A stretch of 64,000 nucleotides of DNA from Nitrosomonas ureae. GTDB taxonomy: Bacteria; Pseudomonadota; Gammaproteobacteria; Burkholderiales; Nitrosomonadaceae. The DNA lies in assembly GCF_900206265.1 (NCBI RefSeq), contig NZ_LT907782.1, forward strand, positions 1,426,001-1,490,000, written 5' to 3'. Each line of letters starts with the position of its first letter. Positions within the stretch are counted from its first letter, which is position 1. The translations under genes were made by a program, and so were the position numbers. The notes under the pieces are model-generated. The model did not search any database. It saw only the letters and a list, made by a program, of their open reading frames with translations, and had not been told where the DNA came from. Below, piece after piece: positions 2,507 to 55,339 of the stretch.

Positions 2507-2662
2507 ATGAAACTTTTAAAATTTTTTGCAGCAACAATTTTTGCATTGACATTAGTAGCTTGCGGTAAACCTACGGCTCCGGAAAGCGCTAAGGAAGAAG
2601 GTTACGGAACGACTCATGAAGGCAAACCGGCTGAAGGCCGTAATGAGCTTCCTGCTAATTAA
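2507..2662 (+). CDS. Small lipoprotein, 51 residues
   Basis: A short gene with a clear lipoprotein signal: MKLLKFF followed by a hydrophobic stretch and the lipobox LVAC at residues 17-19/Cys19-20. The mature part is only about 32 residues, hydrophilic and rich in Glu, Lys, Gly and Pro, with a near repeat EEGYGTTHEGKPAEGRNE. A purine-rich ribosome site (AAAGAGA) lies about 10 bases upstream, a putative extended -10 promoter precedes it and a hairpin follows it, so it looks like a monocistronic expressed gene. Function unknown; entericidin-like or other small outer-membrane lipoproteins are formally similar in size, but no specific family is claimed. Confidence 0.65.
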   Translation: MKLLKFFAATIFALTLVACGKPTAPESAKEEGYGTTHEGKPAEGRNELPAN

Positions 2663-3152
2663 ATAGCCGCTCTGAAAAGCATTATTGGCATTGTTTATCG
2701 TTCAATGTCAGTGAATTGACTTAAGACCTCTGTAGGATCAGTTTATCGTTCCTACAGACCTTTAATCTTTAATACCAATAGAAATTTCATATCCCCGCGC
2801 GATCTCTGTTTAAACCGCCTCCGATTGTGTTAGAACTTTACTTGCTAGTTACGCTACCTTAAATTCCTACTCACGCCTATATACTCTCTGCGCTTCATCC
2901 GGATTCCGCCTTGGAATTCATATAAAACCGAAAAGGCTTTCTGCCACAAATACCAATGAATATTATATTTTGGTATCAATCGTTTTTTCATGTGAATTGT
3001 TATACTTCTTAAGGTCTTTACAAAATGCCGCAACCTTATCATTTCGATGCAATTGCGGGTTTATTTTTGACTGATCGGGTGATTCTTAGTCATTTCTCCA
3101 CTAATGAGCCATAAGCAATCACTCTAAACCAGGCATTTCCGGTCAAACCCTC
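2663..3152. other. Intergenic region; no gene recognised
   Basis: After the small lipoprotein gene this 490-base stretch contains one hairpin (2730-2757) and otherwise nothing I can assign. A 62-codon open frame on the minus strand (2854-3042) has no ribosome site or recognisable motif and is treated as chance. Confidence 0.5.
2730..2757 (+). terminator. Hairpin downstream of the small lipoprotein gene
   Basis: An 8-bp perfect stem (CTGTAGGA / TCCTACAG) with a 12-base loop, followed by ACCTTTAATCTTT. It lies 68 bases after the stop and may end the transcript, although the T-run is interrupted. Confidence 0.4.
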
Positions 3153-3580
3153 TATTTGCTGATCATTCGGCGATCAGCAAAGATTGTGGGTAGCCTTTTC
3201 AGGTTATACGCCATCGCCAATAGCATATGTCCGGCATGCACTAATGCTAAGTCACGGTAACACAGGATTTGGCATTGAACCAACGTGCCTGACTACCGAA
3301 GGTGCGCTCTACAACATTCCGGGCTTTGTGATCAGACTGTTGCATTGTAATTGCCGACGCGTGACTGAATGGTTCTTCGCGGCTTTATCCTGAATCCCGT
3401 TTTTAATGCCGTGTGATTTCAGAACATCGCGATGTTTCTGGCTGCTATATGCTTTGGCGGCATGGATGCGGGCTCCTGGCTGGATATGGGCTTTCTCCAA
3501 CAAATTCAGAATGGCCGGACGCCCTGCTGTATCTCCCACATCGGTGCGTAATGTACAGCGATCGCTTTCTCGATAGTGTT
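3153..3580 (-). pseudogene. IS5-type transposase remnant (C-terminal third)
   Basis: Read on the minus strand, fragments in shifting frames match the C-terminal part of IS5-family DDE transposases. One frame gives NLLEKAHIQPGARIHAAKAY, then HRDVLKSHGIKNGI and NHSVTRRQLQCNSLI; after frame breaks, a VE-TFGSQARWFNAKSC-like stretch and HMLLAMAYNLKRLPTIFAD follow, ending at the stop near 3153. These correspond to the family's 'DKGY...', 'VERTFG' and 'AMAFNLK' segments. The N-terminal half is missing or unrecognisable and several frameshifts are present, so it cannot make an active enzyme. A 10-bp inverted repeat (3155-3164 / 3172-3181) lies in the last codons. Confidence 0.75.
3155..3181. repeat. 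Perfect 10-bp inverted repeat
   Basis: TTTGCTGATC, seven-base loop, GATCAGCAAA. It sits in the last codons of the decayed transposase. It could be part of the old element's end or a chance palindrome. Confidence 0.5.
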
Positions 3581-10807: not shown

Positions 10808-12934
10808 TTACCATTCAACCTTACCCGCTAATGCCCAAGTCAGGCCACTATCGGTTGAAATATAAGTACTATCTCGTGCAACGCCTAAAATAGTGGCATC
10901 AAGCGCAAAGCCGGGAGAAAGACGGAATTCAGTAAATTGAATATTTTCTTGCAACAATGAAGTGCCTATATTTTCAGATACTGCTATATTTCCTTGATTA
11001 TTAAGTGTAATCTTATACAAACCTTTCCCATGGACATTGACGAAGATAAGTCGATCATTGGAAAAATTGGGAGAAAACTCAATTTGATGGATTGCGTTCC
11101 CTGGACCTATATGGTTCTGAGTCATTGTAGTCCACACATTGCCCCCATTCTTTGAACGATATAAGCCATTACTTGTGCCGATAAAGACTAATTTGTCCGT
11201 AGCGTATTGAGGGGAAACGGCAATTGATAAATGCTGCTGTCCCGGTAGGCCACGTAATGTGATTGACTCGAATCTCTGTGATTGTAACCAGCTGTTACCA
11301 CCATCCGTTGTGCGCCAGACTTTTCCAGCACGATTTGCGGCAAAAGCTGTACGATCATTCGCGTAGTTGGGTGAAATAGCCAGGCTTACAATATGGGATG
11401 TAGTAGGGACACCCCGCAGCCAGCGCCAGCTGTTACCACCATCAAGGGTTTGAAGAATTCCATGTGATCTTGTCCCTATATAGATCTCCCGATCAGTTTC
11501 AAATGTGGGCGATAAAACGAATGCATTGATAAAAACCGCAAATGGCGATATCTCAGTAATTTTAGGAATAAATTTTGTAGTCCAGTTTTGTCCGAAATCG
11601 TTCGAAAATCCAATATGCCCAGTATTCCGTGAGGCAACTGCCGTAGGCGAACCTGATTGATTCTGAGAAAAATTGACATCAAAAGCACTCATTGGAAGAC
11701 TCAGACTAATTGGAACTGGCCACCCCGTTCTATCCATAGTCCATGTCGTACCACGATCGCTAGAAGTGTATATACCCCCACCGAAGTATGTTGTTGCGAT
11801 CACGGATTGATCATTGATGAAGTTAGGTGACAAGGCCAATCCGGTGAGTAGATTTTTTCGGGTTTGTTTTTGTGCCCAAGTAATACCGCCATCTTTCGAA
11901 ATGAAAAGCCCATCATACGCCGACAGAAAGACCGTTTGGTCTGCTGAGAATGTATTGGATACCTGCAGCTCACTGAATTCTTCCAATGCAGCAGTTTGTC
12001 CGGTAACTGCCGCTCCGGATGCATGATAAGTCCAGCTGTCGCCGCCATCCGTTGATTTATATACAGCCTTTGTTAAGCTGGTACAGAAAACGGTGCGATC
12101 AGTTAAATAGTTTGGAGATAGTGAGACATTATTAATTGCCTCCAATGGCAAATTGGCTGGTTTGAGGGTAAAGCTTGCGCCCGTATCATTGCTGTAATAG
12201 ATTCCGTCAGCAGTAGCCAGAAATACTTCTTTAGGGTTCCCTCCTGACATTGCGATGTCATAAAAGGTTGTTCCTGCAATATTTCCGATACTGCTCCAAG
12301 TGAAACCTCCATCAGTAGATTTCTGCAGATTACCTGTTTTATTGACAGTAATGACCGTCAGATCGGTTGTGAAGCTGGGTGATACGGCTACCAACTGTAT
12401 GCCTAGAGTTGAATTTTGTACTCTAGTCCAGGTGGTTGCTGCCCTGGAACGCCGGTAAAGCTGACCATTCATTGTAGTTAAGAAAACCACGTAATCATTG
12501 TTTCCGAATTTGGCTATAGTCAATTCCTTTATTTTTAGATTGAGAAGCCCGGTATTGGAAAGCTGCCAGGAATTTCCTTGATCCAAGGATTGATACACCC
12601 CATCTCCCCTGGTTGTGGCAAAAACCGTATTATCGGTACCATAGTTTGGTGAGATGCGAATAGAGATTTCTGCAAATACATTATCCAACCCGTTTGGCAA
12701 TCGAGTCCATGTCGTACCACCATCAGTTGATCGCAGAATGTTTGTATATTGATCTGAAGTCGCTTCTGCATCGGTGGACAGAAAGAGAGTCTTATCAGTA
12801 GCATAATTAGGGGAAATACCTAATCCAAATACCATATCATGCGGATTATGGGCATGAATTTTATTGCTACTGATACATAGTAGTATGAGGAGGGTAAATA
12901 ATGTTACTGGATATTGAAAAAAACTAGTTTTCAT
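10808..12934 (-). CDS. Secreted BNR/Asp-box beta-propeller protein
   Basis: A 708-residue protein with a Sec signal peptide (hydrophobic to about residue 28, ending KIHA-HN). The rest is built of two interleaved repeats: about 12 Asp-boxes of the S-x-D-x-G-x-x-W type (STDGGTTWTRL, SLDQGNSWQL, STDGGFTWSS, SSDRGTTWTM, STDSGLTWAL) and about 11 copies of an S-P-x-[FY]-x-x-D-x-x-[IV]-[FI] segment (SPNYATDKTLF, SPNYGTDNTVF, SPSFTTDLTVI). This is the sortilin/YCF48/sialidase-like propeller fold, probably two stacked or one large propeller. No glycosidase residues can be assigned. It may bind surface or extracellular partners. It is monocistronic and followed by a shared terminator. Confidence 0.82.
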   Translation of the reverse strand: MKTSFFQYPVTLFTLLILLCISSNKIHAHNPHDMVFGLGISPNYATDKTLFLSTDAEATSDQYTNILRSTDGGTTWTRLPNGLDNVFAEISIRISPNYGTDNTVFATTRGDGVYQSLDQGNSWQLSNTGLLNLKIKELTIAKFGNNDYVVFLTTMNGQLYRRSRAATTWTRVQNSTLGIQLVAVSPSFTTDLTVITVNKTGNLQKSTDGGFTWSSIGNIAGTTFYDIAMSGGNPKEVFLATADGIYYSNDTGASFTLKPANLPLEAINNVSLSPNYLTDRTVFCTSLTKAVYKSTDGGDSWTYHASGAAVTGQTAALEEFSELQVSNTFSADQTVFLSAYDGLFISKDGGITWAQKQTRKNLLTGLALSPNFINDQSVIATTYFGGGIYTSSDRGTTWTMDRTGWPVPISLSLPMSAFDVNFSQNQSGSPTAVASRNTGHIGFSNDFGQNWTTKFIPKITEISPFAVFINAFVLSPTFETDREIYIGTRSHGILQTLDGGNSWRWLRGVPTTSHIVSLAISPNYANDRTAFAANRAGKVWRTTDGGNSWLQSQRFESITLRGLPGQQHLSIAVSPQYATDKLVFIGTSNGLYRSKNGGNVWTTMTQNHIGPGNAIHQIEFSPNFSNDRLIFVNVHGKGLYKITLNNQGNIAVSENIGTSLLQENIQFTEFRLSPGFALDATILGVARDSTYISTDSGLTWALAGKVEW

Positions 12935-45417: not shown

Positions 45418-47821
45418 TTGTTGAATTCATCGCCTCTCAGACAAATCGAATTGCCAACTGAAGGCATGACGTGTGTTGCTTGCGCCGCGCGTATTGAAAA
45501 GAATTTAAACAAACTTTCGGGTGTTCAAGCTTCGGTCAACTTTGCGAATGAAGAAGCTCATGTAAATTATGATGAAAAACAAGTAAATACAGATAAATTG
45601 ATTAATACCATCGAACATGCCGGCTTTCATATTGCACCACGATCAGTGCAACTTCAACTGCACAAAATGACTTGTGCGGCCTGTGCAGAACATATTGAGA
45701 AAGCATTGGTGAATAAACTACCCGGCGTCACAACCCTTGTCAATATCGCAACAGAAACCGCAAAAGTTAAATTTATCTCGGGTTTGATAACTGTCGAAAA
45801 CTTAATTGATGCGGTCATCAAAACAGGCTATGGAGCCAACGAAATCAATGATTCCAGTATCATGCCGCAGAAAAAGCACGACGTCGAGCAGCCTATCAAG
45901 CTGAATTACGCTTATTCTGGATCTCCGCAATTCTCACATTACCATTAGTACTTCAAATAGGCGCTATGTTTACCGGTCATGAGATGGACATACTGCCTCA
46001 TTGGTTGCAATGGTTATTAGCTACCCCGGTCCAATTCTGGATTGGACGCCGTTTCTATATTGGCATCTGGATTCCCTGCGTGGCGGTAGTGCCAATATGG
46101 ATGTATTGGTTGCGTTAGGTACAAGCATGGCTTATTTTTTTAGCACCGCAGTCACAATATTTGGACTGGATCAACACGTTTATTTTGAAGCCGGCGCAGC
46201 CATAATCACTCTTGTACTATTTGGTAAATTATTGGAAGCACGTGCCATAGGCAAGATCTCCGAAGCAATAGAATCATTGATCAAGTTGCAACCCAAGACA
46301 GCCCGGATTGAGCGCAACGGAAAAATTCTCGAGGTACCCGCAGATAGTCTAAAAATCAACGACATCTTCATTGTGCGCCCCGGTGAGAATTTACCAGTTG
46401 ATGGGGTTGTAATTGAAGGATCTTCTAGCGTTAATGAATCCATGTTAACCGGAGAAAGCTTACCTGTCGGCAAACAGAGAGGCGTAAAAATATTTGCCGC
46501 TACGATTAATCAGCAAGGTTTGCTCAAATGCCGCGCAATCAGTGTTGGTGCCCAAACACAACTCGCCGCAATTATCCATCTGGTGGAAGAAGCACAAGGA
46601 TCTAAAGCACCGATTCAACGTATGGCTGATAAAATCTCAGGAACCTTTGTACCAGTTGTCGTGGTAATCAGCATCCTGACTTTGGGAATAACCTGGTGGC
46701 TTACTGGTGGTTTTGTTACTGCTCTTATCAATGCAGTCGCAGTTTTGGTCATCGCTTGCCCGTGCGCATTAGGATTAGCGACACCAACTGCCATTATGGT
46801 CAGCACTGGACGAGGCGCACAAATAGGCGTCTTGGTTAAGAACGCAGCGGCATTGGAGCATGCTGAGAAAATCCAAACCCTTATAATCGATAAAACGGGC
46901 ACGCTTACCGAGGGCAAGCCAGAAGTTACCGGCATTGTACCGGTGCAATCCATTGGCAAGCAGGATTTATTACAAATCGCAGCTTCCTTGGAACACGGCT
47001 CGGAACATCCGTTGGCACGAGCTGTGCTTAACTGCGCACAACAAGAACAATTATACCTTCAATCAGTTAACGATTTTAAAACGATTACCGGCAATGGCGT
47101 TACGGCCTACTTGCATGGGATAAAATGCCTGCTTGGTTCCCCAAAATTTCTAACACAACATAATATTGCCATTGATAAACAAAAAATAAGCAGCTTACAG
47201 GGAAAAGGAAAAACCGTTATTGGTATTGCTTCTGTTACTCATAACACCGGCAAAATACTTGGGTACTTAGCCATCGCAGATCAGCTACGCAACACCTCTA
47301 TCCAAGCAACCAACGAGTTGAAATCCTTAGGTATTGAGGTAATTATGCTAACCGATGACAATACTGTAACTGCAAAAACAATTGCCAAACGTACTGGCAT
47401 TACACAATATCGCGCTGAGATGTTGCCACAGGATAAAGCCACAGAGGTATTGAAAATAAAAGCCAGTGGCAAATTTACGGTAATGGTCGGGGATGGGATT
47501 AACGATGCGCCCGCTCTAGCTGCTGCAAATGTTAGCTTTGCTATTGGCGCCGGCTCGGATGTAGCGATTGAAGCTGCCGATATCACTCTGATTCGCAATG
47601 ATCTGATGAGTGTCGTCGATGCTATTTCTCTATCGCGCGCCACACTTCAAAAGATCCGTCAGAACCTAATTTTCTCTTTTATCTATAATATATTGGGAAT
47701 TCCATTGGCAGCCGTCGGCATGCTTAATCCGGTCGTCGCCGGTGCCGCCATGGCTATGAGCTCTGTATCAGTTGTCAGCAATTCGTTGCTATTGAAACGA
47801 TGGCAAACCAATCATGAATAA
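45418..47821 (+). pseudogene. copA: Copper-translocating P1B-type ATPase, two frameshifts
   Basis: The first frame (45418-45948, TTG start) has two heavy-metal domains, GMTCVACAARIEKNL and KMTCAACAEHIEKAL. Near 45891 one base is missing; the following frame reads AYQAELRLFWISAILTLPLV and continues to W-I-G-R-R-F-Y-I-G, ending at TAG 46116. Near 46070 another base is missing; the third frame continues [20 protein letters not shown] to the end with CPC ([13 protein letters not shown]), [13 protein letters not shown], the HP motif (SEHPLARAV) and [15 protein letters not shown]. With two bases added the gene is a complete CopA of about 800 residues that exports Cu(I). Either decayed or mis-sequenced. 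Confidence 0.88.
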
Positions 47822-48341: not shown

Positions 48342-50348
48342 TTATTGAACAAAATCTTCCGGAAAAGGTATATTCATTTTCTCACGATTTAACGCATTTA
48401 TTTGCAAGTTTAGTTGATCAATATTTGACCACCCCGAGCTATCTACAGATGGAATCCAACGTGCACGCAAATATCCCTTTCTATCTATGAGAAACTCCAT
48501 ATGATCTGGAGTTGTTCCTCGGCCAATAATATCAGGATGACTCATGGTTCTACGTGATAATGCAAAGCTGGTTGCAATTTCAGCAGCGCCTTGAGTAACA
48601 ATTGGAAAAGGTAGTTCTTTAGCTATTAATTGCTTCATATCTTCAACAACAAGATCTATATTTGGCACTGCGAGCAACATAACATCTTGCTCCTTTAATC
48701 TTCCATAAGCCTGCTTTAACTGTTCCAAACGACTCATAGACTGAGGCCAAGAAAAAACGACCATCAAAACAGCTTTGTTTTCTCTAAATTCTTGCAATGT
48801 GCCTGGACTTCCATCATGACCCTGGTATGAAAAAACTGGTGGCTTTACATATGCTTTATTGGGCACAATCTCCGGTGTTAAAATCCGTGCCTGATAGCCG
48901 CGTGATAATGCATGAATATAATTAACCAGATCCCATCGGTCTTCATCAGATAGTTTATCGATGTAACCTGGCATATCTGTATTTACCATACCGTTCGTAA
49001 TCCAGTTATAGAAATCTCCTGGCGTATGTTCTATGGTATGCGGTTCAATTAGTAGATCCGGCAATTTTGTGGATAAAGTTCGTGACTTAATACCATTACC
49101 CATTCCCTGCGGCCCATGACACTCCACACAATGCTGTGCAAATAATGTAGCGCCATGCGCCACAGAAATCACATCAAAAGGTACAGGTGTTCTCCGATAG
49201 GTTTCAGGGTAAGCTTGGATTGTCAGAGCTTGCAATGCAATCGCTCCCCCTGATATAAACAATAAAGCTGGAATAAAAATTAGGCGCTTTATCCCCCAGT
49301 TTCTTAACCAGCCTAGTTGTAAAATCGCTATAGCAGCCACCAGAATCGCCACGCCACTCCAAACTTGAATAGCAACATTAGGTTGATTCCAAGTGGCAAT
49401 AACCGAGAAGCGAAATGAAAATGGCCAATTTTCAATAAGTGTATGCTTTGCAGGGGTTGTATTGGTAATGATGGTGGCTAATAGAAGTAGTAGCAACGCC
49501 AAAATAAATTCAATGCGGACCCATCTTCTGATTCCATTGTTACCGTTACTAACATCAGAATCTTGTTTACAATTTAACAAAGGCAACCAGTAAGAACGTA
49601 CTCCCGCGGCAATTAAGAGAATAATAACTAATAAGAATATTTTGATACTTAAAAGCCAACCATAGGGAGTAGCAACTAATGCAGCATAATAGCCATCAAA
49701 TATCTGATTAGCGACTATTAATCCAGTGAATATAATTAATAGCATTACCGGTAATGCTACCGATGAGAACCGTCTCAATATATTAAATTTATTTGTTTTA
49801 TTTGTTTTATCAAAGATTAGCAGCATAAAAGCTGGCAAAGCTCCAAACCATACCCCAGCAAGAATGAGATGAAGCGCATATGGCATTACAGCAGTTACTG
49901 AAAGCTCCTCTGCTGCGGCATGGCTAGCTAATGAGCTTGCAATGAGCGGTAGAGTCGCAATTGCAACACATAAAGCATAGCGCCACCGCGTTTTAGACAC
50001 ATTGCAAAGATATAAAATTGCTAGCAACAGCAGTATTGCTGCTGCGAAACGAAAAATCCAAATCTGTCCTACACGTGTATCTCCTAATAATCCCAGCCAG
50101 ACTTCATACTCCCCTAAGCTGTTAGCACTTCCAGTTACTTGCACTATGGTCGTAGCTAGAATTACAAGCAAGCCTGTCAGCATACTCACAGCCAACCATG
50201 GAAACAGGCGCTCTAACCGCCCTACCCATACTTCTGAATGAATTTGCTTTACAGTGCTCGTAATTATCAAAAATAAACAGCTGCCAAGCAAAATTAGATT
50301 TGATACAAGCTGAACCCAGCGTGCTAATGTTGCAATTGCATCTACCAT
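48342..50348 (-). CDS. CopD domain - cytochrome c - redoxin-like fusion protein
   Basis: A 668-residue protein in three parts. Residues 1-380 are a CopD-type membrane region with about nine to ten helices (for example LHLILAGVWFGALPAFMLLI with the conserved His and Trp). Residues about 395-485 are a class I cytochrome c with haem motif CVECH (407-411) and an axial Met in NTDMPGY. Residues about 500-668 resemble a thioredoxin-fold redoxin (AVLMVVFSWPQSMSRLEQLK ... HMEFLIDRKGYLRARW), but the place where a Cys pair should be is FSWPQS, and the domain has no cysteine. It follows copC by 13 bases at the end of the amo-linked copper genes. Probably an inner-membrane copper or electron-handling protein. 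Confidence 0.83.
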   Translation of the reverse strand: MVDAIATLARWVQLVSNLILLGSCLFLIITSTVKQIHSEVWVGRLERLFPWLAVSMLTGLLVILATTIVQVTGSANSLGEYEVWLGLLGDTRVGQIWIFRFAAAILLLLAILYLCNVSKTRWRYALCVAIATLPLIASSLASHAAAEELSVTAVMPYALHLILAGVWFGALPAFMLLIFDKTNKTNKFNILRRFSSVALPVMLLIIFTGLIVANQIFDGYYAALVATPYGWLLSIKIFLLVIILLIAAGVRSYWLPLLNCKQDSDVSNGNNGIRRWVRIEFILALLLLLLATIITNTTPAKHTLIENWPFSFRFSVIATWNQPNVAIQVWSGVAILVAAIAILQLGWLRNWGIKRLIFIPALLFISGGAIALQALTIQAYPETYRRTPVPFDVISVAHGATLFAQHCVECHGPQGMGNGIKSRTLSTKLPDLLIEPHTIEHTPGDFYNWITNGMVNTDMPGYIDKLSDEDRWDLVNYIHALSRGYQARILTPEIVPNKAYVKPPVFSYQGHDGSPGTLQEFRENKAVLMVVFSWPQSMSRLEQLKQAYGRLKEQDVMLLAVPNIDLVVEDMKQLIAKELPFPIVTQGAAEIATSFALSRRTMSHPDIIGRGTTPDHMEFLIDRKGYLRARWIPSVDSSGWSNIDQLNLQINALNREKMNIPFPEDFVQ

Positions 50349-50361
50349 TTATTACCGTAAG

Positions 50362-50763
50362 TTATTTTTTAACACTAAAGTCATATTTTGACTCAATGAC
50401 ATGACCATCTACAGACATCACCCGATAATGGACGGTATAAAGTCCGGGTTGAATCTGAGGCAAATTTAATATGATAGATTTTGAATCATGTGTAAGTATC
50501 TCTGGCGTATCTTCAGTAACTAGTTTTTTATTCGAGTCTTCTACTGTTACTGATGCATAAGATCCCTCTATTTTCTCATTAAACCAGAGCTGTATTTGTT
50601 TAGGGGGAGTAGAAAGCGTAGCCCTACGTGGTGGCTCAGATTTAACTAAAGTAGCATGCGCTATTGCAGGATTAACTTGAAATAATAAAGGAAGTAGCGT
50701 TAATAAGGCAACAAAAGCTGCTACTTCTCTACTACCATATTTTGATAATCGCTTATTTTGCAC
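50362..50763 (-). CDS. copC: CopC copper-resistance protein
   Basis: A 133-residue periplasmic CopC with signal peptide (NPAIA-HA). Mature start HATLVKSEPPRRATLSTPP supplies the N-terminal His ligand; the rest of the beta-barrel shows IQLWFNEKIEGSYASVTV and the C-terminal VMSVDGHVIESKYDFSV with the Asp/His copper site. It probably binds Cu(II) and hands it to CopD or to AmoB. It lies downstream of amoD in the same direction. Confidence 0.92.
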   Translation of the reverse strand: MQNKRLSKYGSREVAAFVALLTLLPLLFQVNPAIAHATLVKSEPPRRATLSTPPKQIQLWFNEKIEGSYASVTVEDSNKKLVTEDTPEILTHDSKSIILNLPQIQPGLYTVHYRVMSVDGHVIESKYDFSVKK

Positions 50764-50870: not shown

Positions 50871-51455
50871 CTAAGCCGTTGCATCTCGTTCGTCAGTTTT
50901 ACGTTTACGCATCATGATAAAAGCTGCAGCCCCCGCAATGAGCATTACTATTGGTGCAATGATTGCAACCTTCGATACCGGACGACCCTCCCCTACTGAA
51001 AATGGAAACCTCGATACATAGTCCTGCGCACCTCCCGTAACCGTCACCAGTCCTACAAACTTACCCTTTTCCGGAAAAACATGCTCTACCGTAATCGATG
51101 CCGAGGGATATATTTTAGGTGGCAAGTGATATACCGTAATCTCGTCCAGTTTTTCTTCTGAGCCCGTATCCCGAATTATCCTTACCTCTGTCGTCAACGG
51201 ACGCAGTTCCTCCTGAATATAATCCAACGCTATCACGGTCTTGCCTACTTCTGGTATATCTTCACAAAATTCCTCTTCCTGTGATAATGGCTGATAGCCC
51301 GTAAAATGCATCCGATATGGTCCAACTGTTAATATACACATATCATCCGCTAAAGCCAGCCCACCATGGGCTTGTACTTGTGCTGCGAGTAGCATGCTCA
51401 TCGCAAGCAATGCTGCCAATAATACTTGTTTGATTTTTATTAATCTTGCTAACAT
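50871..51455 (-). CDS. amoD: AmoD, ammonia monooxygenase-associated membrane protein
   Basis: A 194-residue protein with signal peptide (VQA-HG) and one C-terminal helix (about 162-182, VAIIAPIVMLIAGAAAFIMM) followed by the basic tail RKRKTDERDA. The mature start is HGGLALADDMCILTVGPYRM, and paired parts LSQEEEFCEDIPEVGKTVIA resemble the paralogous upstream gene, so amoE and amoD are duplicates. In known betaproteobacterial ammonia oxidisers two such genes (orf4/orf5, amoE and amoD) follow amoCAB. The His-led N-terminus may bind copper. Function is not firmly established; the family is restricted to ammonia and methane oxidisers. Confidence 0.87.
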   Translation of the reverse strand: MLARLIKIKQVLLAALLAMSMLLAAQVQAHGGLALADDMCILTVGPYRMHFTGYQPLSQEEEFCEDIPEVGKTVIALDYIQEELRPLTTEVRIIRDTGSEEKLDEITVYHLPPKIYPSASITVEHVFPEKGKFVGLVTVTGGAQDYVSRFPFSVGEGRPVSKVAIIAPIVMLIAGAAAFIMMRKRKTDERDATA

Positions 51456-51522: not shown

Positions 51523-52188
51523 TTAGTTCGGCTTTGCGCGGCGCGATGCCAACCAACTCTTGAAACGCCTTGATCTAAACAGCTTATATACCAGTATTGT
51601 GGCCAACAACAAACCCACTGCAGGCCCTACGGTGGCTCTGAATACATTGGCATAATTAACCATTTCCACCCGCAGATGATACTCATAGTTCAACGGCGGC
51701 AGGCCTTCGGCTGTAATCAGTACCAAATATTTCCCCTGATCCAATACATTTTGCGTGCTAATTACACCGTCTTCATATAATGCAGGTCGCAAGCTGGTAA
51801 TTGCTTCTCCTTCGGCTGCATTGCTGCCTTTTATTATCTTTACTCCAACCGGTATATCTCGCAACTCAGGATCAACCAGATCTATAACAAGTATGGCATT
51901 GCCGGCTTTGGGTATATCTGTACAATAATGACCTTCCTTATCAATTTGAGGTTGATAAGTACTGAGGTGAATCATGTTCTCCCCGATCCGACGCATACAA
52001 TTATCTTCTTCCATGGCTACCTTGCCATGTGCACCAACTGTACTTGTGTAAAGTGCCATAACAAGTATAAAGACTGCAATCCCTGCTTGTGTTATTTGTC
52101 TGACCACGACAAATCCTCCTCTTGGGTAAGCATCTCTAATTTTTCCAGTTCCATTATCCGCATTCTCTTGTGATACCTTAAATTTCAC
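51523..52188 (-). CDS. amoE: AmoE, ammonia monooxygenase-associated membrane protein
   Basis: A 221-residue paralogue of the following amoD. The mature part begins HGKVAMEEDNCMRRIGENMI after a helix (about 32-50), then EGHYCTDIPKAGNAILVIDL, parallel to the amoD segment, and ends with a helix (about 186-206) and a basic tail RSRRFKSWLASRR. It is the gene directly after amoB, separated by the strong terminator at 52204-52248, so it may be expressed separately. The start used here gives a 30-residue cytoplasmic N-terminus; a later start near the helix is possible. Confidence 0.86.
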   Translation of the reverse strand: MKFKVSQENADNGTGKIRDAYPRGGFVVVRQITQAGIAVFILVMALYTSTVGAHGKVAMEEDNCMRRIGENMIHLSTYQPQIDKEGHYCTDIPKAGNAILVIDLVDPELRDIPVGVKIIKGSNAAEGEAITSLRPALYEDGVISTQNVLDQGKYLVLITAEGLPPLNYEYHLRVEMVNYANVFRATVGPAVGLLLATILVYKLFRSRRFKSWLASRRAKPN

Positions 52189-52267: not shown

Positions 52268-53530
52268 TTATAACTTGGTAAAGACTGGAATTACAGCACC
52301 AGCAATACTGTTAATATAACGATTGCCGTCATCATCCCATGTCATCAGCAAACCACCAAAGCGACTTTCCGGATCACCCAACAAAGCCATCAAACGTTGG
52401 ACTTCCCACAACGCATCTTTGGCTTCCATCTTAACTTCACGGGTTTCTCCAGGTTCAATCCCTCTGTCGTCATCCATTGTCAAACCAGTAGCTACCAGCT
52501 CTTTTGGATAATCAGGATCCAGATGCTTTTGACCCAATGGATTTACAAAACGAACACCCGCTGTCGTAAACTCTCCGATGTTAACCGCTGAGTCTCCGTT
52601 GTTGGTGATTTCCATCGTCACGCGTAACGCACGTCCAGGAACGTCATAGTTAGCATGGGTTACCTTGATCGCTACCGGATTCGGTGCAATCGGTAATGGC
52701 TCTACCTTGGATTCACCCGCTTGGATCGGTATGGTATAGGGGTGTACGCTTTCAGTATAACGATAGCCTCCCCATACCAGCGCGCAGGTCAGTATCGCTA
52801 TCGCCATACCAAATTTCCTGTCTGTCGGTGATGTCAGTAGTTCGTCACCATATGCCAGCAATACACGACTACGCGGCAGAAACATCGGTTTCGCTACAAA
52901 ATAACCAATCCAGAATACCCCTAAGCCTGTCCATAAAACGTGCCAGAATATACCATTGCTGAAGTTAAACGTCTCCAGATCAATCGTTTTTCCTGTCAAT
53001 GTGGTTACAGGATTGGTAAAGTCATCCCAGCTGCCTGAAATGTTCATCCACGCTGCTGGTCCTGCAATAGGGCCCGCATCTTTTACGTTCACCATTGCAT
53101 GCATGTGATGACGGCCTGGAATACGCGCTTTCAGTTTAACTTCAAACTCATAATCACGACCAATGATCAACGGTCCTGATATGAATGTCGGTTCGCCATT
53201 CAGCTTGGTACTCAAACGTACAAACACCGGACTTGGGCTACCTACGTTAAAGAATGCACGATCAGGCTTACCTACCGCACGTGGCCAATCTTCCGCCAGG
53301 TGAAATTTCCCTGTCATGGTTGCAATGTCATTTACTTTGGTGACTTTAGGTTGCCATTTCAGGTCATACCATTGAATACTACGCATACGCAGAAACGGTT
53401 CTTGTGAACGTTCACCGTGTGCCGCCGCTGTATTAACATCTACCGTCAGCGTCAGCGCCAGTGAGGCCGCCCCTATCGCCGCTCCATACAGGCCTAATAC
53501 GCCCAGTTTAAAAATGCTTTTTATATTCAT
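52268..53530 (-). CDS. amoB: Ammonia monooxygenase subunit B
   Basis: A 420-residue AmoB. Signal helix (about 10-32), then the mature N-terminal His in [20 protein letters not shown], the copper ligand region of the N-terminal cupredoxin domain, and [20 protein letters not shown] with the other His ligands. Two membrane helices lie near 185-205 and 235-255, and a second cupredoxin domain follows ([20 protein letters not shown]-like) to the end. AmoB is the large periplasmic part of the trimeric enzyme that oxidises ammonia to hydroxylamine. Its ATG shares a base with the amoA stop (TAATG). Confidence 0.98.
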
Positions 53531-54354
53531 TATTTAATCCCCTGTGCAAAGCCTTTTTCACCAAATGCCGTTACGTCATTCTTCATCGATATACGTCCTC
53601 TTTCTCCTTTAACATAGTAGAAAGCAGTACAGTATAGTTTGCCAAAGTACCACCATACGCAGAACATCAGCATTGATACAAAGGCTGAGAAAAACGCAGC
53701 AATAACCGTGGTGTGACCACCAAAAGTACGCAGCGATCCTTGCTCAATCAGGCGAACATATTCCGGTGTACCTGTACGTACATACAGAAAACCTGTGTAG
53801 TCAGCTACTGACAGCAATACGCCTTCTACAACCAGCGGTAAGTGGGTGGGGCCAAAAATAGGCCAGTTGCCCGGATAGAAAAATAAACCCCAGAATCCAC
53901 CGCCTAACAGTGCGGTTACCAACCAGTTACCCGTCAATAATAAAATCGTATCCAGCATCAACGCACCAGGAATCATGGTCGATGGCAGTACAAAATTGAT
54001 CGGATAGTGCGACCACCAGTAAAAACCCCAGTAACGGGTCAGCCATTCACCTACTAACAGGCATACGATACATAGTGTCGCGCCAAATGGCAGACGATAG
54101 TTTACCCACAGGTAATACATCAGTGCCGCACAGTACATGACACCTACAATCGGTGTTACTACAGGCCACCATTGACGGTCTTTCCAATCAAGCCAGAAAT
54201 CCCAGTCTCCTGCCAGCAGCATGAAGTGCATGTGATACGTTCCTACCAGAAGAATACAGAGAATTGGAAAATAAACCGCATCTATATATCTGGACATCTT
54301 GACCGCTTCCGGCGGCATCTTCGCTGCCGCTATAATTTCGTCTGTTCTACTCAC
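53530..54354 (-). CDS. amoA: Ammonia monooxygenase subunit A
   Basis: A 274-residue membrane subunit with about seven helices, the standard marker of ammonia oxidisers. Seen: [60 protein letters not shown] and [19 protein letters not shown]. The start is GTG (54354) with GGGAGGG upstream; the same kind of start is known for other Nitrosomonas amoA genes. Transcribed with amoC and amoB. Confidence 0.99.
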
Positions 54355-54529: not shown

Positions 54530-55339
54530 TTAAGGAACGATACGATTGTTCAGAATTTCTCTGCTTGCGTTGTTCCAGGTTACATCGGTCAGGTTAGAGT
54601 AACGGGTGATAATCTGTGCTGCAATACCACCTGAAAATAAACCCGCCCAGCCCAGAATCACAAAGCCCCAGTGCAACGGTGCGCTAAACAGTTCTTCCAT
54701 GAACCAGAAAGCATGTCCCCATTCGTTCAACCCTACGTTCGGCAGAATCATCAATGGGCCTGCAATCGCCATCACCAACGGGAACGATGTGCCGCGGCTA
54801 TACAATGGCAGACGCGTCATCGCGTACAGGTAGGCCGCTACTCCGCATACAATGTACATCGGGAATGAGCCATAAAACACCACTACGTGACTCGGTGTAA
54901 AGCTCGTGTCACGAATAATCACCTGGTGCCAGCTTGCATCCTGTTCGGTAAAGAAGCTGCCGCCCCAGTAAACACCAAACAAATACACACCCAGCCACAT
55001 CATCCAGTAAAAATAACGTTTGATCTCAAGCTTGGTATCCAGATTGTCCAGTTGTTCCTTGGTATCGCGGGTCTTCAGTATCCACCCCCAGGTTACCAAC
55101 GCAAACAGTGGCATCAGTGTCATGTGTACGCGCCACAGTCCCATCCATACCTTGTCAAATTCAGGCTCCATCGAGTCCATGCCATGTGAATATGCAAATG
55201 TCCTTTGGTACCAGATCCAAAATATCGCTACCAAAAGCATCGTTAACATGCCCAGCTTGTAATACTTCGAGTCGTACCACAGCGACATGTCATAGTTGGC
55301 GCTCGCCGCGCCGCTAGTTGTGCCATAGGTTGTTGCCAT
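54530..55339 (-). CDS. amoC: Ammonia monooxygenase subunit C
   Basis: A 269-residue membrane subunit with about six helices. The N-terminus [20 protein letters not shown], the [20 protein letters not shown] stretch with conserved Asp and His metal ligands, [20 protein letters not shown] and FAPLHW-like [13 protein letters not shown] are typical. AGGAGG is spaced 7 bases before the ATG. In this genus amoC often occurs in extra copies; this one heads the amoCAB operon. Confidence 0.98.

Follow-up and report, generated by a model that had tools for sequence, protein, structure and literature searches.

Genes for CopC and CopD are well described beside those of the copper membrane monooxygenases (CuMMO: ammonia monooxygenase (AMO), particulate methane monooxygenase (PMO or pMMO) and hydrocarbon-oxidizing relatives), in the orders amoCAB-E-D-copC-copD and pmoCAB-D-copC-copD-pCuAC (PMC6189053, PMC4863621, PMC13374858, PMC10472526). 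Comammox Nitrospira have CopCD resembling that of ammonia-oxidizing bacteria (AOB) near AMO and canonical Nitrospira differ (PMC9693385, PMC13374858), so co-occurrence in comammox organisms is partly known already. CopD is quite common in other prokaryotes (PMC6189053). YebZ of Escherichia coli is implicated in copper uptake (PMC13344008), and YcnJ of Bacillus subtilis, a CopC-CopD-YtkA protein, serves copper enzymes under copper limitation (PMC12362106, PMC13344008). The supply of copper to AMO and pMMO, and the redox state of the copper supplied, are addressed here through one gene of Nitrosomonas ureae. The window analyzed, a stretch of 64,000 nucleotides (contig NZ_LT907782.1, positions 1,426,001 to 1,490,000), contains the minus-strand row amoC, amoA, amoB, amoE-like, amoD-like and copC, and this row ends with a gene whose product joins a CopD membrane domain, a cytochrome c domain and a thioredoxin-fold domain. 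We refer to this fusion as CopD3.

CopD3 shares the operon position of the amo and pmo copD genes in the literature and, in part, their co-occurrence. CopCD beside amo and pmo is thus already known, and what appears new is the haem and thioredoxin-fold domains fused to that CopD; no mention of either domain in an amo or pmo CopD was found in the literature searched, which covered subscription journals in part. Our preferred reading, to which we give a probability of about one half, is that CopD3 is a CuMMO-dedicated CopD variant with reduction-coupled copper handling, with delivery to the CuMMO and the direction of electron flow as its conjectural elements.

A preliminary description, made from the DNA letters, had reported a single 668-residue three-domain protein next to amo genes that was not a plain CopD. 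Each of these points holds: the gene is one intact open reading frame (ORF) at the end of the amo row, the three-domain order is conserved in ammonia oxidizers and linked to amo, and Pfam identifies all three domains. CopD (PF05425) matches residues 190-292 with 68.1 bits (Pfam cut-off 32.1), Cytochrom_C (PF00034) residues 396-481 with 51.4 bits (cut-off 21.3) and AhpC-TSA (PF00578) residues 504-629 with 27.2 bits (cut-off 26); CopD, Cytochrom_C/Cytochrome_CBB3 and AhpC-TSA are the only matches above cut-off. Judged by its sequence, CopD3 is a CopD by profile and residues, yet it scores below the NCBIfam copper_CopD equivalog cut-off (NF033808, 107.3 bits versus 195) and has its own set of domains. 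Chance and mis-assembly of two genes were both ruled out, because a second full-length copy exists in the genome and the fusion is found in 111 of the 125 genomes from the window's family.

The distribution of the fusion was assessed at E<=1e-20 in the window's family and in Pseudomonadota, at E<=1e-25 in Gammaproteobacteria and the Nitrospira family and at E<=1e-40 in the alpha-type family; class and phylum genome samples are called draws. The group labels are presumptive: Nitrosomonadaceae denotes the window's family, Nitrospira family that of genome G528, and alpha-type the family of genome G848, from the same phylum but another class, with the operon layout described for alpha-methanotrophs. 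The label comammox follows Nitrospira record titles plus the presence of amo genes. An AmoA match was found in 67 of the 125 Nitrosomonadaceae genomes, all of them among the 111 with CopD3. Scanning 84,980 species confirmed 229 loci, of which the best 80 were kept and examined. The titles of these best 80 of 229 comprise Nitrosomonadaceae genera, Nitrospira/Nitrospirae, Cycloclasticus, a Piscirickettsiaceae bacterium, one "beta proteobacterium" (isolate AOB) and one "Proteobacteria bacterium"; the record title of L082 reads Nitrosospira, yet the genome it comes from (G520) belongs to the Nitrospira-family draw. Among 41 genomes from the best 80 loci that were searched for AmoA/PmoA, 28 had a match, including all four of Cycloclasticus type. 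In the other 13, every locus is of Nitrospira type and is preceded by amoD- or amoE-like genes, and AmoC was matched in 11 of these genomes (G537 has none and G535 lies outside that draw).

In the Nitrospira-family draw of 157 genomes, CopD3 occurs in 63 and AmoC in 67: both in 60, CopD3 only in three, AmoC only in seven and neither in 87 (Fisher p = 2e-31, uncorrected for kinship). All three CopD3-only genomes (G674, G543 and G537) have amoE/amoD-like genes upstream, and G543 has AmoA. Among 369 gammaproteobacterial genomes, four have CopD3 and 11 a CuMMO, with all four within the 11. CopD3 was found in none of the 358 CuMMO-negative gammaproteobacterial genomes, so that the proposed link survived comparison with organisms devoid of such enzymes. 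The Pseudomonadota draw (398 genomes) gave 28 genomes with any match, which covered most of the length only in the window's genome (G000), G006 and G848; the remainder correspond to the CopD part or to the part from the cytochrome onwards.

The operon linkage recurs in several lineages. Nitrosomonadaceae and comammox-type Nitrospira contigs have amoE-amoD(-amoD)-copC-CopD3, and G848 has pmoC-A-B-D-copC-CopD3 with PCuAC next. The alpha-type family has matches in 21 of 189 genomes, at 22 loci, and 17 of these have the layout PmoD-CopC-CopD3-PCuAC; L207 is an eighteenth, with the fusion ORF split. Among the five loci outside these 17 are that of G1225, with PmoC and an AmoD-like gene within 10 kb of the fusion, the second locus of G1147, where the ORF is split and CopC, PCuAC and an AmoD-like gene were seen but no CuMMO subunit, and those of G1167, G1212 and G1125. 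In the stretches read, a CuMMO gene is near the fusion in G848, G1225 and G1121, and none was found in the 15-20 kb read around it in G1167, G1212 and G1125. We considered the fusion as an AMO-specific trait and dropped this for a CuMMO-wide one, since full-length CopD3 also occurs in Cycloclasticus, in one further gammaproteobacterium and in alpha-type pmo operons. On these gene patterns, CopD3 goes with CuMMO carriers in general and not with AMO alone.

The membrane part retains the features of a plain CopD. Like the CopD/PcoD/YebZ family (PF05425), CopD3 has the Pfam match, eight predicted transmembrane (TM) helices and an adjacent copC, and its H143 and H160, on neighboring helices 4 and 5, align with H135 and H154 of YebZ and with four other plain CopDs. 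The main set of fusion sequences consists of 130 rows, obtained from 150 by removing ORFs <600 aa and duplicates that share the same last 300 residues; H143 is present in 129 and H160 in all 130. The five aligned plain CopDs stop near residue 300, where CopD3 adds a His-bearing loop, two helices, the cytochrome c and the thioredoxin fold. The loop carries H302, W308, P309, F312 and R313. H302, which is located where plain CopD ends, occurs in 114 of 130 fusion rows, and only one (L175) of the five plain CopDs has a His in this column. YcnJ is similar in that its CopD bears periplasmic domains (PMC12362106, PMC13344008), but it holds CopC and YtkA, whereas CopD3 holds cytochrome c and a thioredoxin fold and has CopC as a separate protein. 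If the N terminus is periplasmic, 12 of the 87 inside positions are Lys or Arg, against 5 of the 128 outside ones (five helix-end residues counted on each side), a distribution that places the haem and redoxin domains in the periplasm.

An AlphaFold2 model of CopD3, built from a 48-row alignment (A3, 47 of the 80 kept loci plus the window), has a mean predicted local distance difference test (pLDDT) of 81.4 and a predicted template modeling score (pTM) of 0.56. It comprises eight long helices up to residue 297, two further helices at 323-374, a poor cytochrome region (residues 381-407 with pLDDT <50) and a well-modeled third domain. Structure comparison of this predicted model indicates that the membrane domain shares the fold of cytochrome bd CydA: residues 1-303 resemble 7ose_A with Z 21.0, a root-mean-square deviation (rmsd) of 3.5 and 283 aligned residues. 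Ten cytochrome bd rows have Z values of 18.6-21.0, and five alternative complex III rows match less closely (Z 14.1-16.5); helical bundles easily reach middling Z values, and those of cytochrome bd exceed that range. A sequence search of the PDB with the membrane part gave no match at E<=1.

These folds, the predicted periplasmic haem c and the linkage both to CuMMO genes and to members of the PmoD/AmoD family, which includes a PmoD with a CuA site (PMC6189053), would suit an electron conduit in which the CydA-like domain takes quinol electrons and the haem c passes them to the CuMMO or to AmoD/PmoD. We consider this unlikely, given that H143 and H160 are common to YebZ, with its suggested role in copper uptake, that seven of the 11 gammaproteobacterial CuMMO genomes have no CopD3, that a methanotroph copCD mutant could be obtained and studied (PMC7558416) and that the protein is scarce. 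Its proteome share is 0.02% in N. europaea and 0.03% in N. multiformis, and it was not expressed in N. ureae (PMC5960693). Such low abundance fits an accessory factor and, together with the result for N. ureae, weighs against a bulk electron-donor role. A variant that we regard as equally unlikely would make CopD3 the missing redox partner of CuMMO: a CydA-like, possibly quinol- or haem-b-linked domain would feed the haem c, which would reduce the copper of CuMMO or AmoD/PmoD in place and so activate freshly loaded or damaged enzyme, with the thioredoxin fold as a docking arm.

In the cytochrome c domain, CxxCH is present in 150 of 151 fusion rows (all 130 of the main set and 20 of 21 alpha-type rows, the exception being the weak member L206 from G1125), and the distal Met ligand, M459, in 126 of the 130. 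The middle domain thus has the CxxCH and distal Met that mark class-I cytochromes c in sequence, and haem attachment is predicted. Omega, estimated pairwise by NG86 between the window's copy and three relatives (L003, L049 and L050), is lowest in the cytochrome c (0.06-0.09) in all three of these usable pairs; the CopD part has 0.18-0.22, the linker 0.17-0.36 and the redoxin 0.19-0.30. Two further pairs were mostly saturated, and the values obtainable from them are low (L006, cytochrome c 0.03; L053, linker 0.14 and redoxin 0.10). By these estimates the gene is under purifying selection and the haem c domain is its most constrained part.

Such constraint, with CxxCH nearly universal, would be odd for a mere decoration. 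It therefore counts against CopD3 being an ordinary CopD importer with lineage-specific additions, in which the haem and thioredoxin domains give only stability or docking surfaces and copper enters the cytosol, the destination suggested for other CopDs. So do the score below the equivalog cut-off and the close to one-to-one co-occurrence with AmoC in the Nitrospira family. The CopD domain above its Pfam cut-off, the two retained His residues and the precedent of YcnJ for accessory periplasmic domains on a CopD speak for such an importer, which we regard as possible but doubtful.

The third domain was modeled from a 45-row alignment (A4, 44 of the 80 kept loci plus the window; pLDDT 87.8), and PF00578 matches 44 of the 45 members at E<=0.01. 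The model has a thioredoxin fold with ResA-type proteins and peroxiredoxins as the nearest structures (Z about 14-15; the best PDB row has Z 14.8 over 135 residues, rmsd 2.5). The catalytic Cys or CxxC of ResA/AhpE-type proteins is absent from the window's copy, whose complete set of Cys residues (24, 115, 127, 260, 407 and 410) ends at the haem motif, and the column of the AhpE peroxidatic Cys holds Ser537 (our reading of the HMMER alignment). The domain lacks Cys in 129 of the 130 main-set rows (AOB, comammox and gammaproteobacterial); the lone exception, L069, has two, away from the old active-site loop. The Cys-free redoxin of the preliminary description therefore stands for the window and nearly all of the main set, and was ruled out as a family-wide trait, as two Cys (F-A-R/H-C and a later C-P) occur in 17 of 21 alpha-type rows where the window's copy has Trp/Ser. 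We think it very improbable that the domain is an active peroxidase or a thiol-disulfide enzyme acting on AMO cysteines: its nearest folds would suit this, and the Ser in the peroxidatic column, the Cys-free main set, the off-loop Cys of L069 and the confinement of paired Cys to those 17 alpha-type rows do not.

Other residues of this domain are strongly conserved. W534 is found in 128 of 130 main-set rows and R540, R600, H616, E618, D622, R628 and R630 in every one, and the strand D-x-x-G-x-x-R-x-R occurs in all 151 rows (130 main-set plus 21 alpha-type), 138 of which have the strict form D-R-x-G-x-x-R-A-R (118 of 130 main-set and 20 of 21 alpha-type). H616-x-E618 was considered as an invariant metal pair and is retained as a mere lead, since it is invariant in the main set only and is mostly E-x-H in alpha-type rows (position 616: E in 14 of 21, Q in three, H in two, S in one and G in one; position 618: H in 17, E in three and S in one). 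As the redoxin loop and this pair both change across rows, no single thiol chemistry holds the domain family together. SCO copper chaperones have CxxxC plus His copper ligands. An SCO-like copper site was also rejected: an invariant His precedes the E-F-L-I-D strand, but visual comparison places it out of register with the SCO His, and the third domain has neither of the two SCO Cys.

The neighboring CopCs look like the Cu(II)-binding type, judging from their residues. The window's CopC has an N-terminal His after the signal peptide plus D-G-H, and among 113 distinct adjacent CopCs (alpha-type excluded) an N-terminal His after a signal-like motif occurs in 111 (loose pattern), D-x-H in 113 and at most two Met in 105, the scarcity of Met speaking against a Met-rich Cu(I) site. 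In YcnJ, both the CopC Cu(II) site and the CopD His are needed, and a conserved CopD His, the counterpart of either H143 or H160, is required for function in YcnJ and YebZ (PMC13344008). The site of Cu(II) reduction in YcnJ is called open (PMC12362106). Plain CopD leaves that site open, and the most constrained domain of CopD3, a haem c that would sit beside the mouth of CopD, would carry out the reduction; reduction-coupled handling is therefore favored.

A haem c beside a copper domain could run in either direction, and a Cu(II)-type CopC would hold the product of the reverse reaction. CopD3 might then be a cuprous oxidase, a safety valve against copper stress whose haem takes electrons from excess periplasmic Cu(I) to the respiratory chain and protects CuMMO-rich membranes. 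The linkage is to amo/pmo and not to export genes, and the CopA-type ATPase gene nearby in the window is frameshifted; we consider this proposal quite improbable.

Under the preferred reading of reduction-coupled copper handling, periplasmic CopC would hold Cu(II) and dock on the CopD membrane domain, where H143 and H160 would take the copper ion. The haem c, tethered by the two extra helices on the periplasmic face, would exchange an electron with the periplasmic cytochrome pool, and transfer of this electron from the fused haem would bring the copper into its Cu(I) form for handling. The third domain, which on this reading has ceased to act as a thiol redoxin in the window's lineage, may serve in docking or metal handing through its D-x-x-G-x-x-R-x-R strand and, where present, a C-terminal His-x-His tail, and might steer copper to the monooxygenase or to its partner AmoD/PmoD. 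Four elements are putative: attachment of the haem, binding of copper by CopD3, the way in which electrons run and the handing of copper to the CuMMO. The preliminary description had suggested a coupling of copper delivery or Cu(II) reduction to the respiratory chain that might serve AmoB maturation; the redox part remains sensible given the apparent Cu(II)-type CopC and the constrained, predicted periplasmic haem c, and the restriction to AMO gives way to a CuMMO-wide trait. If the reading is right, CuMMO copper supply would be coupled to the cytochrome pool across AOB, comammox-type Nitrospira, alpha-methanotroph-type operons and Cycloclasticus. The CopD of such pmo/amo operons should not be modeled on plain CopD.

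Several observations weigh against this reading. Of the 111 CopD3 carriers in the window's family, 44 have no AmoA match, and the gap persists in near-complete genomes (CopD3 in 93 and AmoA in 61 of 99); collapsed amo copies in draft assemblies may explain these carriers. CopD3 adjoins only one of the three amoA loci of the window's genome. Conversely, seven of 67 AmoC-positive Nitrospira-family genomes and seven of 11 CuMMO-bearing gammaproteobacteria show no CopD3, so a CuMMO can apparently be loaded without the fusion. The poor cytochrome region of the model meant that the geometry of haem and copper could not be judged, and we know of no electron partner of CopD3. The window's copy lacks the His-x-His tail, which is thus not essential to it. 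Four genomes from the order of the window (L182-L185) encode a free-standing protein of a cytochrome c and a degenerate redoxin that resembles the C-terminal half of CopD3 (26-28% identity to fusion rows over about residues 382-675) and lacks a CopD domain. Neither CopC nor CopD nor a CuMMO was matched within the 15-16 kb read at these loci, so copper operons are not the only setting of this half. The joined protein is nearly restricted to them among the sampled genomes, as far as gene neighborhoods indicate. Finally, the copCD mutant of Methylosinus trichosporium reportedly indicated that these genes are not critical for copper uptake and lie outside the copper switch (PMC7558416), which argues against an essential import role if its CopD is this fusion; the architecture of CopD3 may itself help to explain the lack of an uptake defect.

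The window's genome (3,064,188 bases in a single contig, with three amoA loci) encodes two CopD3 copies. The second, at G000:C1:706477-708480, is unlinked to the first and has 47% identity to it over the full length. Overall, 103 of 151 rows end in a His-x-His tail: all 21 alpha-type, 36 Nitrospira and four Cycloclasticus-type rows, the single G361 row and 41 of 89 Nitrosomonadaceae rows. In a quick FastTree phylogeny that has the alpha-type rows as outgroup, is weak at some deep nodes and excludes the split ORF of L207, 43 of the 48 tail-less rows form one Nitrosomonadaceae clade (tail in 0 of 43) that includes the window's copy, which ends in DFVQ, and copC immediately precedes the gene in each of the 43. 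The clade of the unlinked copy has 15 members, which all keep the tail and none of which directly follows a copC. From this distribution we infer that the tail is ancestral, was lost in the clade of 43 and was kept by the unlinked copy. It looks like a division of labor between linked and unlinked paralogues, and two Nitrosomonas paralogues with and without the tail offer a natural comparison for dissecting it.

Two genes (11463-11813 and 11034-11348) lie upstream of the unlinked copy in L032 and encode a short, Cys-rich protein that matches DUF326 and a protein with a BON domain. Of 14 other loci tested, only L147 has a close BON match, L036 and L042 each have a weak one, and no locus has the DUF326 protein. 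About 3 kb ahead of the unlinked copy, L038 (3206-4210) and L043 (3423-4493) have a short match to amoC and, after it, an amoE-like gene.

Table 1. Coordinates in the window of the CopD3 gene, its parts and the amo row
Feature	Position	Strand	Remarks
CopD3 fusion gene	48342..50348	minus	one intact ORF, ATG start, 668 aa, no internal stop
CopD membrane domain	49449..50348	minus	residues 1-300, eight predicted TM helices
Linker	49194..49448	minus	residues 301-385, predicted periplasmic loop, then TM9 and TM10
Cytochrome c domain	48894..49193	minus	residues 386-485
Haem-c attachment motif C407-V-E-C410-H411	49116..49130	minus	residues 407-411, attachment predicted
Cysteine-free AhpC/TSA-like thioredoxin-fold domain	48345..48893	minus	residues 486-668
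copC	50362..50763	minus	13 nt upstream of the CopD3 gene
amoD-like	50871..51455	minus	named by position and similarity; no Pfam match
amoE-like	51523..52188	minus	named by position and similarity; no Pfam match
amoB	52268..53530	minus	Pfam PF04744
amoA	53530..54354	minus	Pfam PF02461
amoC	54530..55339	minus	Pfam PF04896

Searched against plasmid records, the alpha-type protein matched 14 of them, around the cytochrome c region only and with none covering 80%. In an alpha-type pmo operon, L177, a second amoD/pmoD-like gene (2588-3208, plus strand) lies on the other strand about 5.6 kb past the end of the fusion gene. At two amo-fusion loci, amoA was matched in pieces only, some with internal stops (G024:C8:125516-126211 and G100:C21:56648-57357), beside an intact fusion (G024:C8:120193-122226 and G100:C21:51334-53358); this reflects either assembly error or retention of the fusion after the neighboring amo copy broke. 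Downstream of CopD3 in the window, on the plus strand (45418-47821), a CopA-type P1B ATPase gene is frameshifted, with its HMA-HMA part and its ATPase part in ORFs of different frames. In the close relative G116 (L181), this gene is fragmented still further, and from these disrupted frames copper export by this ATPase may be decaying next to the amo cluster.

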